From contig JAQGOW010000674.1 of the NCBI GenBank assembly GCA_028293405.1, positions 1 through 10,404 on the forward strand: a DNA stretch of 10,404 nucleotides. The letters run 5' to 3'. This DNA is from Verrucomicrobiales bacterium (lineage in GTDB: Bacteria; Verrucomicrobiota; Verrucomicrobiia; Limisphaerales; Palsa-1400). How positions within the stretch are numbered: the first letter of the stretch is position 1; every line of letters begins with the position of its first letter. Shown piece after piece: positions 762-6,329 of the stretch. The position numbers were made by a program, and so were the translations under genes. The notes beneath the pieces are model-generated. The model saw nothing but the letters and a program-made list of their open reading frames with translations, was not told the origin of the DNA and made no database searches.

Positions 762-3700
762 ATGAAAACACTACTTTCAAAATCCAACACAGAGACGCCA
801 ATGACACAGAAATTTACATGGAAAAAACATCGGATTGTTCTTATTGCGTCTTTGCGTCTTTGCGTTGAAATCTTTCTCCTAACGATCACAGCTTGCTCAT
901 TCGCACACGCGGCAACGACCAACGACATCACCTCACTCGTCCAACGCGGCCTCTTCGAAGAAGAAGCCAACCACAACCTCGACGCCGCGATGCAGTCTTA
1001 CGAGACCGCAATCAAGCTTCATGACAAAGATCGCAAGCTCGCCGCGACCGCGATCTTTCGTTTAGGCGAATGTTATCGCAAGCAAGGCAAGACCAACGAA
1101 GCGAACGCCTACTACAAACGCATCATCACCGAGTTTGCCGACCAACCACAACTCGTCGAGCTAAGCCGGTCTTACGTTGGCAACATAGCCGACACCAACA
1201 GCGATGCATTTGCCGAACGAGCCCGAAAGAATTTTCGTGGAAACACCTCCGACTCAAAGGCTGCCCAGCAAGATTCCGGGAACGAAATTTTGGTCGCCAG
1301 CCTTCGCAGCGTGCAACTCGAAACCGCGCAGGCCGAAGCCCAGTGGAAACATGTCAGTCAACTCGCTGGCGACGAGCTTGTGAACTTCTTTACGACAATT
1401 CAGCCGGACCAGCTTGTCATCGATTTGGACCGCGAACGAAGGGACGCAGAATCAAAACTGCAGGTTCTCGCGACACAATTTGGCGAGCAGCATCCTGAAT
1501 ACAAAGCCCAGGATAAGGTTGTCCAGACCACGGCAAAACGTCTCCAGCAACGCGCCCACACTGTCGCGTGGGGCGTCGAACAAAAATACAAAATGCTCAA
1601 AGAGCAGGAAGGCGCGCTCAAAAAGCAATTGGATGCAGATCGAGGAGATCAACTCGCATCCAACGCAAAGAAATCTCTCACGGCGACGACTTCGGAAGAA
1701 GACGAAGATATTCGCAAAATCAAAGATATGATCCAGAACAGTCCGGACCTCATCAATGTTGCGGTGAATAGCGACGACGGCACTCCGTTGCAAAAAGCCT
1801 GCATCCATGGCCACCTCAAAGTTGCAGAGTTTCTTTTGGCGAACGGTGCCAACATTAACGTTCGAACAGAGAAAGTTTCTCCGCCCTTGATCTGCGCTGC
1901 CGTGCACGGCCACAAAGCGCTGGTCGATCTGCTCCTCAGTAAAGGCGCAGACATCGAAACCCAAAGCACCGTCACCTACCACTACCAGACTGCTCTCATG
2001 TGCGCTGCTTTTCGTGGGTTTAAAACCATAACCCAAACCTTGTTGGAACATGGAGCCAAGGTGAACGCGACCGATGACACGGGGCGTACTGCGGTGCATC
2101 GTGCCGCTGAAAACGGCTATCCCGAGATCGCCGAATTGCTTCTAACCAACAAAGCCCGTGTAGATGCAACCACTCTGGAAAAGAAAACTCCTCTGCATCT
2201 CGCTTGCGATGCCAATCGTGTTGACGTCGTCAAGGTGCTGGTCGACCACGGCGCCGACGTAAACGCAAAAAGCGACGGCGGCTTCACTCCCCTTCTGAAC
2301 GCTTCCGAACACGGTCAACTAGACGTCGCGAGCTTTTTGCTTGAGCACGGTGCAAACATTGATGACGCAGTCTCGAATAACTGGACTCAGGCCGAATTCC
2401 GCGGCTTTCGGCCCATCAATTTCGCCATTTCTCGCAACGACGTGAAGTTGCTCAAACTTCTGCTAGAGCACCATGCAAACCCCAATTCAACTTTTACTCG
2501 AGAGAACGTGAACGCCTTTCCTCGTTCTACTACCCATGGCCTCACTCCGTTGCTAACAACATTGAATCGTGAACTTGTGGAAATGTTACTGAACCACGGC
2601 GCCGACCCAAATCTCGCCGACGAAAATGGCAAAACCCCGTTGCATTTGGCCGTTGAGAGCCGGGAAAAAGCGCTCGTCGAATTGTTGATAGCACACGGTG
2701 CAAAGGTGAATGCCACCAACAAACAAGGCACTCCACCCATCGCCTACGTTCGAGGCGCCACAACAGGCGTCCCCAGCGAAATCCGCCAACTCCTCGTCAA
2801 AGCCGGCGCCAACGAAAACTTTGTGCGCCTTAAACAAATCTCCATTCGGCGCAACGGTCAGGATAACGTGATCTTCAGCAAAGGTTCAAACGACTGGAAC
2901 CACTACACACTTCTCGAACTCATCTCTGTTGTTTACGGAAACAATCGGCCACCGAGTTCAGACGGTGGAAATCCGGAATTGGCTCTGCGGTTGATTCCGA
3001 ACAGGGGCGTACGTGGGATCGATTCAAGTGGTTTCATTCCGCCACCACCTCTTTCGATTAGCAGCGGAGTTCCTGCTCCCGCTTTTCAATTTCCCGACGT
3101 CGCGCACATAAAAGTTAAGCGCATTTCCAAATTACCGTTCACAACAGTGGGGAATCACGACCGGGTGGGGGCGGCATCTCGTAATTATGACAATGAAGCT
3201 ATCAACGCGTCATCGAAACCAGAGGCAGAACACACTGAAAATGTAAAAGTTCTCCTGGAAGCCGGTTTACCATCGAACGACCTCCAATTGGAATGGGGCG
3301 ACATCGTTGAAATCCCGGAACAAGACCATCCGATCAATAGTGCTTGGCAAGGTCTCTCAGGAGAAACACAACGGCAACTCATGCTGATGCTCAGGCGTGA
3401 AGTTCAGATCAAAATCAAAGGTGGATTTACCAACCTGACCATTCTTCCACCAATGGTAAACTATGGGAGCTTATCTGCGATGCGCGCGAATTATCAACAC
3501 TTCTTCAACAGCACCATGCCCAAGGTTTCAATGCCTGAGAACTACATCGTGTCGCCCTTTGGTTTGCGCGAGGTCGTGGACGCTGCTGGAATCCTTCGCT
3601 CATCCTCCGACACAACGCACGTCAAAATACTACGCAACCAGGACGAGAACACCCGCAGCATCACCGTCAATCTGGCCGAAGGCGAAGAACCATGGATCGA

Positions 3701-3770
3701 ACCCGGCGACACCATCGAAATCCCCGATCGCGACCCAGCTGCGGCAGCTTCAGGCGCGCAAAAGCCCTGA
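762..3770 (+). CDS. Exported TPR / coiled-coil / ankyrin-repeat protein with SLBB-like C-terminus
   Basis: A 1002-residue exported protein of unknown specific role. The start is uncertain: ATG 762 or in-frame ATG 801 (M14), and neither has a clear Shine-Dalgarno. M14 gives the more normal signal peptide (KKHR, then a hydrophobic core to about residue 50). Two cleavage options overlap: a signal peptidase I site after AHA (A50) and a lipobox ITAC with Cys45, so it may be a lipoprotein. Residues 55-140 are TPR-like (LGECYRKQGKTNEA). Residues 180-292 are charged and probably coiled coil; FGEQHPEYKAQ recalls the YGPKHP region of Wzz/GumC chain-length proteins. Residues 338-685 form about ten ankyrin repeats with clear TPLHLA and LLxxGAxxN motifs; repeats 6-8 are irregular. 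Residues 688-990 contain SLBB-like segments: two related endings, WGDIVEIPEQD (845-855) and PGDTIEIPDRD (981-991), and the segment 931-990 resembles the ligand-binding beta-grasp of polysaccharide-export proteins. Ankyrin assignment is firm; SLBB and Wzz resemblance is by eye. It follows the response regulator after 95 bp with no visible terminator. Confidence 0.9.
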   Translation: MKTLLSKSNTETPMTQKFTWKKHRIVLIASLRLCVEIFLLTITACSFAHAATTNDITSLVQRGLFEEEANHNLDAAMQSYETAIKLHDKDRKLAATAIFRLGECYRKQGKTNEANAYYKRIITEFADQPQLVELSRSYVGNIADTNSDAFAERARKNFRGNTSDSKAAQQDSGNEILVASLRSVQLETAQAEAQWKHVSQLAGDELVNFFTTIQPDQLVIDLDRERRDAESKLQVLATQFGEQHPEYKAQDKVVQTTAKRLQQRAHTVAWGVEQKYKMLKEQEGALKKQLDADRGDQLASNAKKSLTATTSEEDEDIRKIKDMIQNSPDLINVAVNSDDGTPLQKACIHGHLKVAEFLLANGANINVRTEKVSPPLICAAVHGHKALVDLLLSKGADIETQSTVTYHYQTALMCAAFRGFKTITQTLLEHGAKVNATDDTGRTAVHRAAENGYPEIAELLLTNKARVDATTLEKKTPLHLACDANRVDVVKVLVDHGADVNAKSDGGFTPLLNASEHGQLDVASFLLEHGANIDDAVSNNWTQAEFRGFRPINFAISRNDVKLLKLLLEHHANPNSTFTRENVNAFPRSTTHGLTPLLTTLNRELVEMLLNHGADPNLADENGKTPLHLAVESREKALVELLIAHGAKVNATNKQGTPPIAYVRGATTGVPSEIRQLLVKAGANENFVRLKQISIRRNGQDNVIFSKGSNDWNHYTLLELISVVYGNNRPPSSDGGNPELALRLIPNRGVRGIDSSGFIPPPPLSISSGVPAPAFQFPDVAHIKVKRISKLPFTTVGNHDRVGAASRNYDNEAINASSKPEAEHTENVKVLLEAGLPSNDLQLEWGDIVEIPEQDHPINSAWQGLSGETQRQLMLMLRREVQIKIKGGFTNLTILPPMVNYGSLSAMRANYQHFFNSTMPKVSMPENYIVSPFGLREVVDAAGILRSSSDTTHVKILRNQDENTRSITVNLAEGEEPWIEPGDTIEIPDRDPAAAASGAQKP
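788..867 (+). repeat. Degenerate dispersed-type repeat inside the signal-peptide coding region
   Basis: Two short repeat motifs lie within the first 35 codons of the ankyrin gene. ACACAGAGAC (788-797, last base G) and ACACAGAAAT (804-813) form a loose 16-bp repetition. TTGCGTCT occurs twice and TTGCGTTG once at an exact 8-bp period (844-867). From memory, sequences of the type 'CTTTGCGTCTTTGCGTT', often near 'ACACAGAGACACAGAG', recur in intergenic DNA of several phyla including Verrucomicrobiota. When translated they give the peptide ASLRLCVE, which is present here at residues 29-36. The repetition is seen directly; the link to a dispersed family is recollection. Confidence 0.55.
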
Positions 3771-3822
3771 TTTCGTTCGTCCCAAAATGTAACGCCTCCG
3801 CAGAGGGTCTGTAACGCCTTTT

Positions 3823-3888
3823 GTAACGGGTAAAACCGCGAAAATCACCAATGTTTACAAGGGTTGTAACGGTGTAACGGGTCAACCC
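3823..3888 (+). repeat. Module A: 66-bp repeat carrying the word GTAAC
   Basis: First of two diverged 66-bp direct repeats. It aligns with 3938-4003 without any gap at 45 of 66 positions by hand count. The five-base word GTAAC, always followed by G, occupies offsets 1, 44 and 52 (3823, 3866, 3874). The shared core includes ACGGGT at both ends and GTTTAC in the middle. Two further GTAACG copies lie just upstream at 3789 and 3811, so this word occurs five times in about 90 bp. Function unknown. Confidence 0.8.
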
Positions 3889-3924
3889 CCCTGGAAGGGT
3901 GCCCCTGTCCATCGTGGGACGCTC

Positions 3925-3948
3925 TGACCCGTCCCACGGGACGGGTCA
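3925..3948. repeat. Perfect 11-bp inverted repeat
   Basis: TGACCCGTCCC (3925-3935) is separated by AC from its exact reverse complement GGGACGGGTCA (3938-3948). The right arm is the beginning of module B, so the palindrome is made of the module's own word in opposite orientation. The two-base spacer is too tight for an ideal RNA hairpin without opening the top pairs, and no T-run follows on either strand, so it looks more like a protein-binding or recombination-type palindrome than a terminator. Confidence 0.7.
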
Positions 3949-4003
3949 AACCTGCAAAAACCTCAAGGTTTACGGGCCTTGGGACGGTGGGACGGGTCAA
4001 GAG
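3938..4003 (+). repeat. Module B: 66-bp repeat carrying the word GGGAC
   Basis: Second copy of the 66-bp module. In exactly the slots where module A has GTAAC (offsets 1, 44, 52) it has GGGAC (3938, 3981, 3989). One more GGGACG lies 22 bp upstream at 3916, mirroring the 22-bp spacing of the two GTAACG copies ahead of module A. The reverse complement GTCCC occurs at 3931 as part of an inverted repeat. The same two-base change, TA to GG, in every slot is more than expected from independent drift. Function unknown. Confidence 0.8.
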
Positions 4004-4021
4004 GGGGGGAGGTGGGGGTGG
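3974..4021 (+). other. G-rich tract with a G-quadruplex-type pattern
   Basis: Four GGG runs at 3974, 3981, 3989 and 3994 are separated by loops of 4, 5 and 2 bases, which fits the usual G3 with 1-7-base-loop rule. They are followed by a run of seven G (4003-4009) and one of five G (4014-4018). The tract overlaps the end of module B and abuts the decamer array. Module A does not keep the pattern, because its GTAAC word removes the G runs, so a quadruplex is not a conserved feature of the module. Confidence 0.55.
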
Positions 4022-4030
4022 ACGTTGGCG

Positions 4031-4140
4031 CCTAAAGGTAAGTAAAGGTAGCTAAAGGTAGCTAAAGGCACCAAACGGCACCAAACGGCACCTAACTGCA
4101 GTTAAATACACCTAACTGCACCTATCCGCAGTTATCTGCG
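4031..4140 (+). repeat. Tandem array of about eleven 10-bp units, exactly in register
   Basis: Units follow each other every 10 bp with no insertion or deletion. Examples: CCTAAAGGTA (4031), GCTAAAGGTA (4051), GCTAAAGGCA (4061), CCAAACGGCA (4071 and 4081), CCTAACTGCA (4091 and 4111), CCTATCCGCA (4121), GTTATCTGCG (4131). A decayed twelfth unit may be at 4141. Neighbouring units resemble each other most and the sequence drifts along the array, from AAAGGTA through AAACGGCA to TAACTGCA. Inside the later half TAACTGCAGTTA (4093-4104) is a perfect palindrome, and TAACTGC (4113) pairs with GCAGTTA (4128) across 8 bases. The period is close to one DNA helical turn, so all units would present the same face. 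The array ends about 130 bp before the cyclase start. Confidence 0.85.
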
Positions 4141-4271
4141 CCTCTATGGAATTTCGGCTGACACGAACTGCCATGAATAATGCACTCATATTTTCCCTGA
4201 GTTGATAAAAGCCCTTTCCCCATTGCGCAAAATGACTTTACACAACTGTTTAACATCCCCAAATTAGGGCC

Positions 4272-6329
4272 GTGCCTGTTCAGAGAATTGACAACGATCA
4301 GGTCGCAAAACCCAGAGCTACAGGGAACGGAAATGGAACTTCCGCGGAGAGCCTGTTTTCCTTGCGCGATGTAGAACGCGCTATCGAACAGTCTCAAAAC
4401 TACCTGCTCAGTGTCCAGCGACCTGACGGCCATTGGGTCGGTGAATTGATCGTCGATGTGACGCTCGTCGCCGACACCCTTGCCTACCATCATTGGAATG
4501 GGAAGGTGGACCCGGAATGGCAACGTAAAGCCGTCAACCACATGTTCGCCTCCCAGTTGCCTTCCGGCGGCTGGAGTATCTATTACGGTGGCCCGGCCGA
4601 AGTGAACGCGACGGTCAAAGCGTATCTCGCGCTCAAACTCGCCGGCGTGCCCGTGACCGATCCCCGGATGTTGCGCGCGCGCCAAATGGCCTTGAGCCTC
4701 GGCGGTGTGCCGCGCATGAACACTTTTTCGAAGCTGTATCTCGCGTTGCTTGGACTTTACCCATGGAAATACGTCCCGACCATTCCGTGCGAGGTCATCC
4801 TGATCGGTAAATGGTTCTACGTGAACTTCAACGAGATGAGCAATTGGAGCCGATCCATGCTCGTCCCGCTGTCGATCATCAATCATTACAAGCCGACGCG
4901 GCCCTTGGATCACGGCACGAACCTGGATGAGTTATATCCAGAAGGCTTTCACGAGCGCGACCTGATGTTAGCGCGCGACCCGGGCAAGTTGACCTGGCGC
5001 AATTTCTTTTTGGAACTGGACGGCCTGCACAAGTTCGCGGAATGGTTCGCGCAAAACGGAATCCATCCCTTCCGCAAACGCGCCTTGAAACGCGCCGAGC
5101 AATGGATGTTAGAACGCTTTGAAGGTACAGACGGTCTCGCGGCGATTTTCCCGGCGATGTTGAATTCGTTGATTGCGCTGAAGGCGTTGGGCTATCCCGA
5201 CGACCATCCGCAGGTTAAACGCGCTGAGCTCGAACTGAAGAAGCTCGAGCACGAGACAGCCGACAGCGTGCGAATCGAGCCATGTTTCTCGCCCGTATGG
5301 GACAGCGCCATTGTGGCTATTGCGCTTCATGAATCAGGTTTGCCGAGCAATCATCCCGCGCTCGAGAAGTGCTGCAATTGGATCATGGAGCGTGAGATCC
5401 GGTTCAAAGGGGATTGGACTTACAAGAATCCGTCGAACGTAGAACCGAGCGGTTGGGTATTCGAATACAACAACAAGTGGAACCCGGACGTCGACGACAC
5501 GGCCATGGTGCTACTGGCCTTGCGCAAGATCCCGACGAAAGACCGCAAGAAGCGCGACGAATGTTTCCAGCGCGGTTTGAATTGGATGCTGACCTTCCAA
5601 TGCAAAGACGGCGGTTGGGCGTCGTTCGATAAGGATTGCACGAAGGGCATTTTGGAGAAGGTGCCGTTCGCGGACCACAACGCGATGTTGGACCCTGAAT
5701 GCGCGGATATTACGGCGCGTATTTTGGAGTTGCTCGGTTACGAGAATTTTAGCCTGGATAATCCGCAGGTGGTGCGCGGGCTGGATTTTGTGCGCGATCA
5801 TCAGGAGCCGGACGGCTCGTGGTATGGTCGTTGGGGCGTGAATTATATTTACGGCACATGGCAGGTGTTGCGCGGTTTGCGCGCCCTCGGCATCAACATG
5901 AAGCAGGATTGGTTGCTCAAAGCCCGTGACTGGCTCGAAAGCGTCCAGCACGAAGACGGCGGTTGGGGCGAGCGCTGCAATACTTACGACGACCCAGTGT
6001 TCAAAGGCCAGGGCCCGAGCACAGCATCGCAAACGGCTTGGGCCGTGATGGGGCTATGCGCCTTCGATGATCCGAATCGCGAAAGCGTCCAACGCGGTAT
6101 TGATTACTTAATCCGCACACAACAGCCGAACGGCGAGTGGGCTGAATTGGAAACAACCGGCACCGGTTTTCCACGCGTGTTTTATTTGAAGTACGACATG
6201 TATCGGAACAGTTGGCCGTTGCTGGCACTGGCGACCTATCGCAATTTGCTGACGCGTTCTGTGATCAAACGCAACGGTCACGCGCAAAAGCTCGAGACCG
6301 AAGGCGAACTTGTCGGCGTGGCGCGGTAG
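4272..6329 (+). CDS. shc: Squalene-hopene cyclase
   Basis: Catalyses the acid-initiated one-step cyclisation of squalene to the pentacyclic hopene (and hopanol), the first committed step of hopanoid synthesis, on the cytoplasmic membrane. 685 residues, in the normal family range. The catalytic acid motif DVDDTA is intact at 406-411. Six QxxxGxW (QW) repeats of the family's alpha-alpha barrels are visible, at residues 49-55, 95-101, 443-449, 511-517, 559-565 and 617-623. The start is GTG 4272, the first possible codon after an in-frame TAA at 4251; the only purine run, AGGG (4266-4269), is too close for a normal ribosome site, so a start a little downstream is possible, since the conserved fold begins near residue 32. 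The last 25 residues are a poorly conserved tail. No other hopanoid gene (hpnCDE, hpnH) is in the window. A repeat array lies directly upstream and might affect its expression. Confidence 0.96.
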   Translation: MPVQRIDNDQVAKPRATGNGNGTSAESLFSLRDVERAIEQSQNYLLSVQRPDGHWVGELIVDVTLVADTLAYHHWNGKVDPEWQRKAVNHMFASQLPSGGWSIYYGGPAEVNATVKAYLALKLAGVPVTDPRMLRARQMALSLGGVPRMNTFSKLYLALLGLYPWKYVPTIPCEVILIGKWFYVNFNEMSNWSRSMLVPLSIINHYKPTRPLDHGTNLDELYPEGFHERDLMLARDPGKLTWRNFFLELDGLHKFAEWFAQNGIHPFRKRALKRAEQWMLERFEGTDGLAAIFPAMLNSLIALKALGYPDDHPQVKRAELELKKLEHETADSVRIEPCFSPVWDSAIVAIALHESGLPSNHPALEKCCNWIMEREIRFKGDWTYKNPSNVEPSGWVFEYNNKWNPDVDDTAMVLLALRKIPTKDRKKRDECFQRGLNWMLTFQCKDGGWASFDKDCTKGILEKVPFADHNAMLDPECADITARILELLGYENFSLDNPQVVRGLDFVRDHQEPDGSWYGRWGVNYIYGTWQVLRGLRALGINMKQDWLLKARDWLESVQHEDGGWGERCNTYDDPVFKGQGPSTASQTAWAVMGLCAFDDPNRESVQRGIDYLIRTQQPNGEWAELETTGTGFPRVFYLKYDMYRNSWPLLALATYRNLLTRSVIKRNGHAQKLETEGELVGVAR

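Follow-up and report, generated by a model that had tools for sequence, protein, structure and literature searches.

Word-exchanging modules on a Verrucomicrobiales contig as probable orphan half-origins of DUF3631 (RepAM-type) replicons

What kind of element keeps its framework and exchanges, in concert, the short word that fills its slots? The question is raised by contig JAQGOW010000674.1 of a Verrucomicrobiales bacterium (GCA_028293405.1), a stretch of 10,404 nucleotides that we call the window. It is contig C13 of a 3.85-Mb genome in 684 contigs that is 67% complete. Two modules in the window, A (3823-3888) and B (3938-4003), align without gaps at 45/66 bases as initially annotated, while the best of 19,766 random pairs of 66-mers from the window reaches 38. 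Five copies of GTAAC (starts 3789, 3811, 3823, 3866, 3874) belong to A and four copies of GGGAC (starts 3916, 3938, 3981, 3989) to B, and the offsets of the slots agree with the initial annotation. Its proposal that the word has been replaced in concert within each copy also holds, though the word is better written as TG-NN-ACG, in which two bases per slot (TA or GG) differ between the modules. As this is the sole change per slot, 6 of the 21 differences between A and B fall in slots. The 22-bp spacing described for the upstream words of both modules (3789/3811 and 3916/3938) is literally correct but does not reflect a register shared between the copies: relative to the first slot, these words stand at -34 and -12 in module A and at -22 in module B.

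The best reading, which we consider probable, is that A and B are orphan half-origins, i.e., dispersed chromosomal copies of the iterons of DUF3631 (RepAM-type) replicons. It builds on four observations: a dispersed family, word concert within its copies, a common layout and core, and a link to DUF3631 genes.

In the source genome, 22 further places match A or B (11 each) at E <= 2.8e-21, and the likeness of the two modules is hence not a chance product of low-complexity sequence. The word-masked framework (GTTTAC N5 TTG NN ACG NN G NN ACGG, one mismatch allowed), for which the initial annotation had suggested a search, indeed recurs in the source genome and in related Verrucomicrobiota, in copies that are mostly uniform inside. 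The source genome (G000) holds 24 places, the window's two included. Across the order, 11 of 320 genomes matched: beside G000, these are G131 (15 matches), G260 (9), G001 (7), G013 (6), G129 (3), G137 (1) and G266 (1), as well as G021, G219 and G302 with one match each, which are chance matches judging by their words. The reversed pattern, used as a control on the same 320 genomes, gave single matches in nine (a count made by hand from the table). Phylum-wide, the masked ACG-type framework matched 4 of 387 genomes; three of these matches are chance by their words and the source genome alone looks real. Blastn searches of plasmid and phage collections with the module returned no match. A word-agnostic pattern in which the core and the TG...C places are fixed matches in 15 of 313 genomes.

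The family word is TG-NNN-CG, and one word fills the equivalent slots in most copies. Both 3' slots hold the identical word in 46 of 55 distinct masked matches. Within 100 nt upstream of these matches, copies of the own word number 146, compared to a shuffled mean of 64 and a maximum of 94 in 2000; the 55 include the chance matches L114 and L122, the in-gene copy of G137 and copies near DUF3631 genes. The word-agnostic pattern finds at least 48 places, and among the 48 listed the same three bases occupy both slots in 37 places from nine genomes and differ in 11. The words encountered include TAA, GGA, TTA, TGA, TAG and TGG, plus CTGAC (L018, L019 and L023) and CTAAC (G024). One copy in G131 (G131:C659:1024-1053) carries GTAGC, whereas the other copies of this genome among the matches listed all use GTAAC.

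The initial annotation offered two explanations for such concert, a factor that reads the words and co-evolves with them, as Rep proteins do with iterons, or a copying mechanism. The former is supported by own-word modules located within or next to DUF3631/RepAM initiator genes, whose products might bind the words. In G137, the 3' end of a gene encoding a 906-aa protein with Toprim and DUF3631 domains contains a GTGAC module, and this protein matches PF12307 with 120.6 bits. PF12307 is present in the nine module-bearing chromosomes tested (in G024 as a short piece only) and absent from all 14 control genomes. Within the order it occurs in 32 of 313 genomes, and these cover all 8 with masked matches judged real (P about 5e-9). 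Furthermore, a word with at least four copies is found in the 3' window of 26 of 37 DUF3631 domains vs. 9 of 367 control windows, although one of the 26 (L197) is a simple repeat. This test excluded the partial pieces L198, L202, L203 and L206 and the too short L195 and L201, and had no locus for the DUF3631 places G152:C191, G207:C83, G143:C398, G225:C332 and G232:C336; the control windows exclude L130 and L151, which hold modules, and L044 and L045 from the window contig. Structural modeling portrays the DUF3631 protein as a putative AAA+/SF3-type helicase with a C-terminal winged helix. As the module in the gene at L178 (5946-8666) and in other genes also encodes the C-terminal tail of DUF3631 (e.g., ...HTVTTPVNIED...), this tail changes with the word. 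At L190, L192 and L199, a module lies 5' of a chromosomal-type DUF3631 gene. At L224 (G141:C74), a DUF3631 open reading frame (ORF) with one in-frame TAG stands beside an intact-looking GGGAC module.

Outside the phylum, two Streptomyces plasmids (encoding Prim-Pol, DUF3631, helix-turn-helix and integrase proteins) bear arrays of an own word where the DUF3631 gene ends (3'), and in a Nonomuraea replicon as well as in Pseudomonas phage Phipami28 an own word is repeated at the equivalent place. In phage vB_Pae_U1, the repeat near a partial DUF3631 match is a different, palindromic one. All five are records that one query found in two collections.

How do the modules of the window relate to those in DUF3631 genes? 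Twenty-two gene-embedded modules have the layout [W W]-core-[W w']-core'-[w' w'], an inverted six-word module of ~130 bp. They were hand-picked from a list of word pairs, so that concert inside modules was tested and not module frequency; L216 and L225 are misregistered but were retained, and L224 was omitted from two alignments (A2 and A3). Both pairs were detected in 18 modules, in 16 of which the right pair follows the left at 112-115 bp (L218 and L227 are spaced differently). If the word is defined by slots 1 and 2, it recurs in slots 3-6 in 69 of 88 cases, compared to 30 of 1696 for foreign words; in 2000 permutations the own-word count averages 9.7 and does not exceed 34. Nine distinct true words occur among these modules, and elements with different words retain a framework identity of 0.45 vs. 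0.25 after shuffling (15 in-register elements, 92 pairs). The slots of the window modules lie at 0, +43 and +51, and slots 3, 2 and 1 of the full modules are in register 43-44 and 51-52 bp apart. Moreover, the core identity to A or B is at least 18/36 in 11 of the 22 modules (random frames: 0.235%), and the central inverted word is retained in module B. Judged by these sequence features, the window modules look like halves of the full module of DUF3631 genes.

The second explanation, in which gene conversion, slippage or template switching homogenizes the words of a module and a word-reading protein is dispensable, could account for the 5' arrays, which differ in number and spacing as expected from local duplication; the 95 nt upstream hold between one and seven words that match. 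The mixture of words at L230 (G049:C51), where two slots read GTCAC and the other four GTCAG, like a snapshot of an ongoing word change, likewise counts for homogenization by copying. However, the words stand at a distance from each other, occur in both orientations and are separated by conserved, non-repeated cores, which ordinary conversion would take along. Copying would also leave the near-constant 114-bp layout and the link to DUF3631 unexplained, and we regard this explanation as quite improbable.

Within the window, the halves and their surroundings comprise the following features.

3788..3905, + strand: module A, word GTAAC, with an array of words on the 5' side followed by the slot word, an A-rich core, the 3' pair of words and a C-run/G-run tail; 11 more copies in the source genome at 80-95% identity; half-module layout matching that of DUF3631 genes.
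3822..3828, + strand: slot word TGTAACG of module A, equivalent of slot 3; other copies of the word begin at 3788 and 3810.
3831..3864, + strand: core of module A, containing CACCAATGTTTACAAGGGT; the core of A or B is clearly resembled by that of 11 of the 22 gene-embedded modules.
3865..3879, + strand: 3' direct word pair of module A (slots 2 and 1), period 8.
3915..4020, + strand: module B, word GGGAC, with an upstream word (3915-3921) and a near-palindrome, then the slot word (3937-3943), the core, the 3' pair and a G-run tail; 11 more places in the source genome; GGGAC in both 3' slots in 22/55 masked matches.
3925..3948, no strand: near-palindrome of module B, an inverted word plus a word (TGACCCGTCCCA/CGGGACGGGTCA), read from its sequence as the putative W:w' pair at the center of a full module.
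3980..3994, + strand: 3' direct word pair of module B, period 8.
762..3770, + strand: ankyrin/TPR protein gene, outside the element, with its stop 17 bp before module A.
4272..6329, + strand: squalene-hopene cyclase gene, downstream and outside the element.

The cyclase gene is placed outside the element because cyclase matches in G002, G003 and G004 lack an upstream module. Together with the lack of a cyclase match in G001 and G005, these module-free loci mean that an empty-site pair for the window was not obtained. Module B is followed by arrays of ~10-bp units (CTAAAGGTAG, GCACCTAACT; 4032-4124), and in G000, G001 and G013 several modules have similar decamer arrays with other words nearby. 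Tandems of A followed by B occur in the window (115 bp) and at L065 of G001 (147 bp). At L018, L019 (reversed) and L023, a CTGAC module is followed by a GGGAC module 146-163 bp on, and these composite copies sit within larger paralogous segments. Module B is second in all five tandems.

Intergenic placement might suggest that the modules are operators or transcript elements of host genes, such as regulator sites, terminators or RNA elements. The family is mostly intergenic (13 of 58 rows overlap an ORF of at least 90 codons, and 9 of these 13 ORFs have at most 160 codons; the 58 include two chance matches and the in-gene copy of G137), and module A begins 17 bp past a stop codon. Upstream neighbors on the same strand are mildly in excess, with 31 on the same strand, 21 on the opposite strand and 6 undetermined; the orientation to neighbors is nevertheless not fixed. 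An Rfam scan of 3700-4300 yielded no family above threshold and one sub-threshold microRNA match, and the cyclase genes of three relatives do without an upstream module. A role for host genes hence has very little to recommend it.

Short, dispersed and mostly intergenic modules, with tens of copies per genome, are also reminiscent of REP/BIME-like elements or MITEs mobilized by a RAYT (Y1) or other transposase. Y1_Tnp is present in 8 of 9 module-bearing genomes, and 2 of 30 Y1_Tnp loci (L130, L151) have a module-like same-word cluster within 1.5 kb; the cluster at L136 is unlike the modules. However, G131 combines 15-20 matches with no Y1_Tnp match (genome 75% complete), and inspection by eye of copies in the source genome revealed neither inverted ends nor target duplications. 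Folding energies relative to shuffles give z +1.03 for module A, with 171 of 200 shuffles folding equally well, and z -2.95 for module B. Module A thus lacks the unusual fold of B; it contains no inverted pair of at least 12 nt, and no single-strand fold was common to the modules in the four stretches folded. Mobilization of this kind appears very unlikely.

A further mobile-element explanation takes the modules as arms of tyrosine recombinase attachment sites, with the words as arm-type integrase sites and the crossover in the core. Arm sites likewise co-evolve with their integrase. On IMG/VR contig L161 (7555-7684), an integrase gene is directly preceded by a GTGAC module, with an inverted word pair 113 bp away, and integrase genes are present on the G137 element and the Streptomyces plasmids. 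Yet among the integrase-like loci retrieved with one distant query (L163-L177 and, with wider flanks, L178-L188), a module was found solely in the G137 element, and there within the DUF3631 gene. Moreover, the chromosomal copies read keep both sides of the core, which integration would split. We therefore consider attachment arms an unlikely explanation.

For orphan half-origins, the following scenario is feasible. The parent form would comprise six 7-bp words arranged as inverted halves within the 3' end of a DUF3631 gene, ~114 bp from the left to the right pair. The initiator would recognize the words through its C-terminal winged helix, after which the AAA+ helicase ring would be loaded on the A-rich core and the DNA opened. 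As each replicon has its own word, a shift in specificity would alter all slots together. A and B would then be halves that differ in specificity and that, having presumably spread as orphans, are now situated among host genes unrelated to them.

Several findings weigh against this reading. The covariation between the word and the winged helix is weak (partial Mantel r 0.16, P 0.025; 18 of 21 elements, as L231, L234 and L236 lack coverage of the ATPase part), the recognition helix alone gives r 0.13 (P 0.054; 18 elements), and the ATPase part alone also correlates with the word (r 0.20, P 0.018; 18 elements). The cores of the remaining 11 of the 22 gene-embedded modules are not clearly window-like. 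The one full-length DUF3631 gene found in the source genome (contig C7, 547 aa) lies in a fetched stretch that is free of modules, and thus no cognate was found for GTAAC or GGGAC in this 67% complete genome. Chromosomal-type DUF3631 genes at L190, L191, L192, L196, L197, L199, L205 and L207 have no 3' module, and one IMG/VR contig carries a module beside an integrase gene with no DUF3631 match. Finally, the published prediction for RepAM is rolling-circle replication, which the present model does not use (PMC3218068).

Provided that the modules are half-origins, the orphans may, more tentatively, act in trans instead of being debris. Copies could titrate or handcuff the initiator, and the word set of a chromosome could then represent resistance to, or parasitism on, DUF3631 replicons. 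If such decoys exist, the adjacent specificities of the window would be two entries, and an arms race between replicons and decoys would drive word change. In any case, DUF3631, a large and little-described initiator family, gains a candidate binding site. As at least nine natural words are available in a frame that hardly varies, an origin-specificity code might be readable from sequence and testable. Chromosomes holding tens of half-origins of mobile replicons also raise the testable question of whether these are decoys, parasites or scars.

Among the literature matches listed, no prior description of these modules was found. The putative origin of pRN1 is an inverted element of ~100 bp just after a gene for a helicase with winged helix and is needed for replication (PMC4234260). 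Scale and position resemble the present module, but the origin is described there as a stem-loop without iteron structure, and the primase domain is archaeal-type (PMC4234260). The winged helix of phage P4 alpha is stated to bind origin repeats (PMC4234260). By domain layout, alpha resembles the present protein in its Toprim primase, helicase and C-terminal winged helix, whereas the helicase here is of the DUF3631 family. We know of no chromosomal orphan copies of P4 repeats. The P4 alpha chain is absent from the best 50 matches of each of two PDB searches with the winged-helix model, which excludes nothing. GTAG/CGTC REP elements are short, dispersed extragenic repeats as the modules are, but are defined by tagged palindromes (PMC3733652), while module A has no unusual fold.

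Closer in protein family is RepAM, a DUF3631 protein shown to be responsible for the autonomous replication of the actinobacterial integrative element pMEA300 (PMC3218068); in the Streptomyces members described here, the 3' end of the gene is marked by an array of the own word. For RepAM elements, a pC194-like nick site is reported and a rolling-circle initiator predicted, and the word "iteron" is absent from the main text (PMC3218068). An origin has been mapped to the 3' end of repB (PMC9455977). In PLE satellites, the DNA-binding domain of RepA and the origin iterons covary and are swapped together as a module (PMC8263062), a pairing of initiator domain and iterons similar to the one proposed here. 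RepA belongs to another protein family, its iterons are semi-palindromic and ~30 bp long, and chromosomal orphans are not mentioned in the sections available (PMC8263062). With iteron origins of plasmids in general, the modules share several copies of one replicon-specific short word at the initiator gene. They differ in having six words in a near-constant, inverted layout of ~130 bp inside the 3' end of the gene, 7-bp words with a variable center, and tens of orphan half-copies in some chromosomes. By analogy, the module might work as an iteron/initiator pair would and serve as a replication origin.
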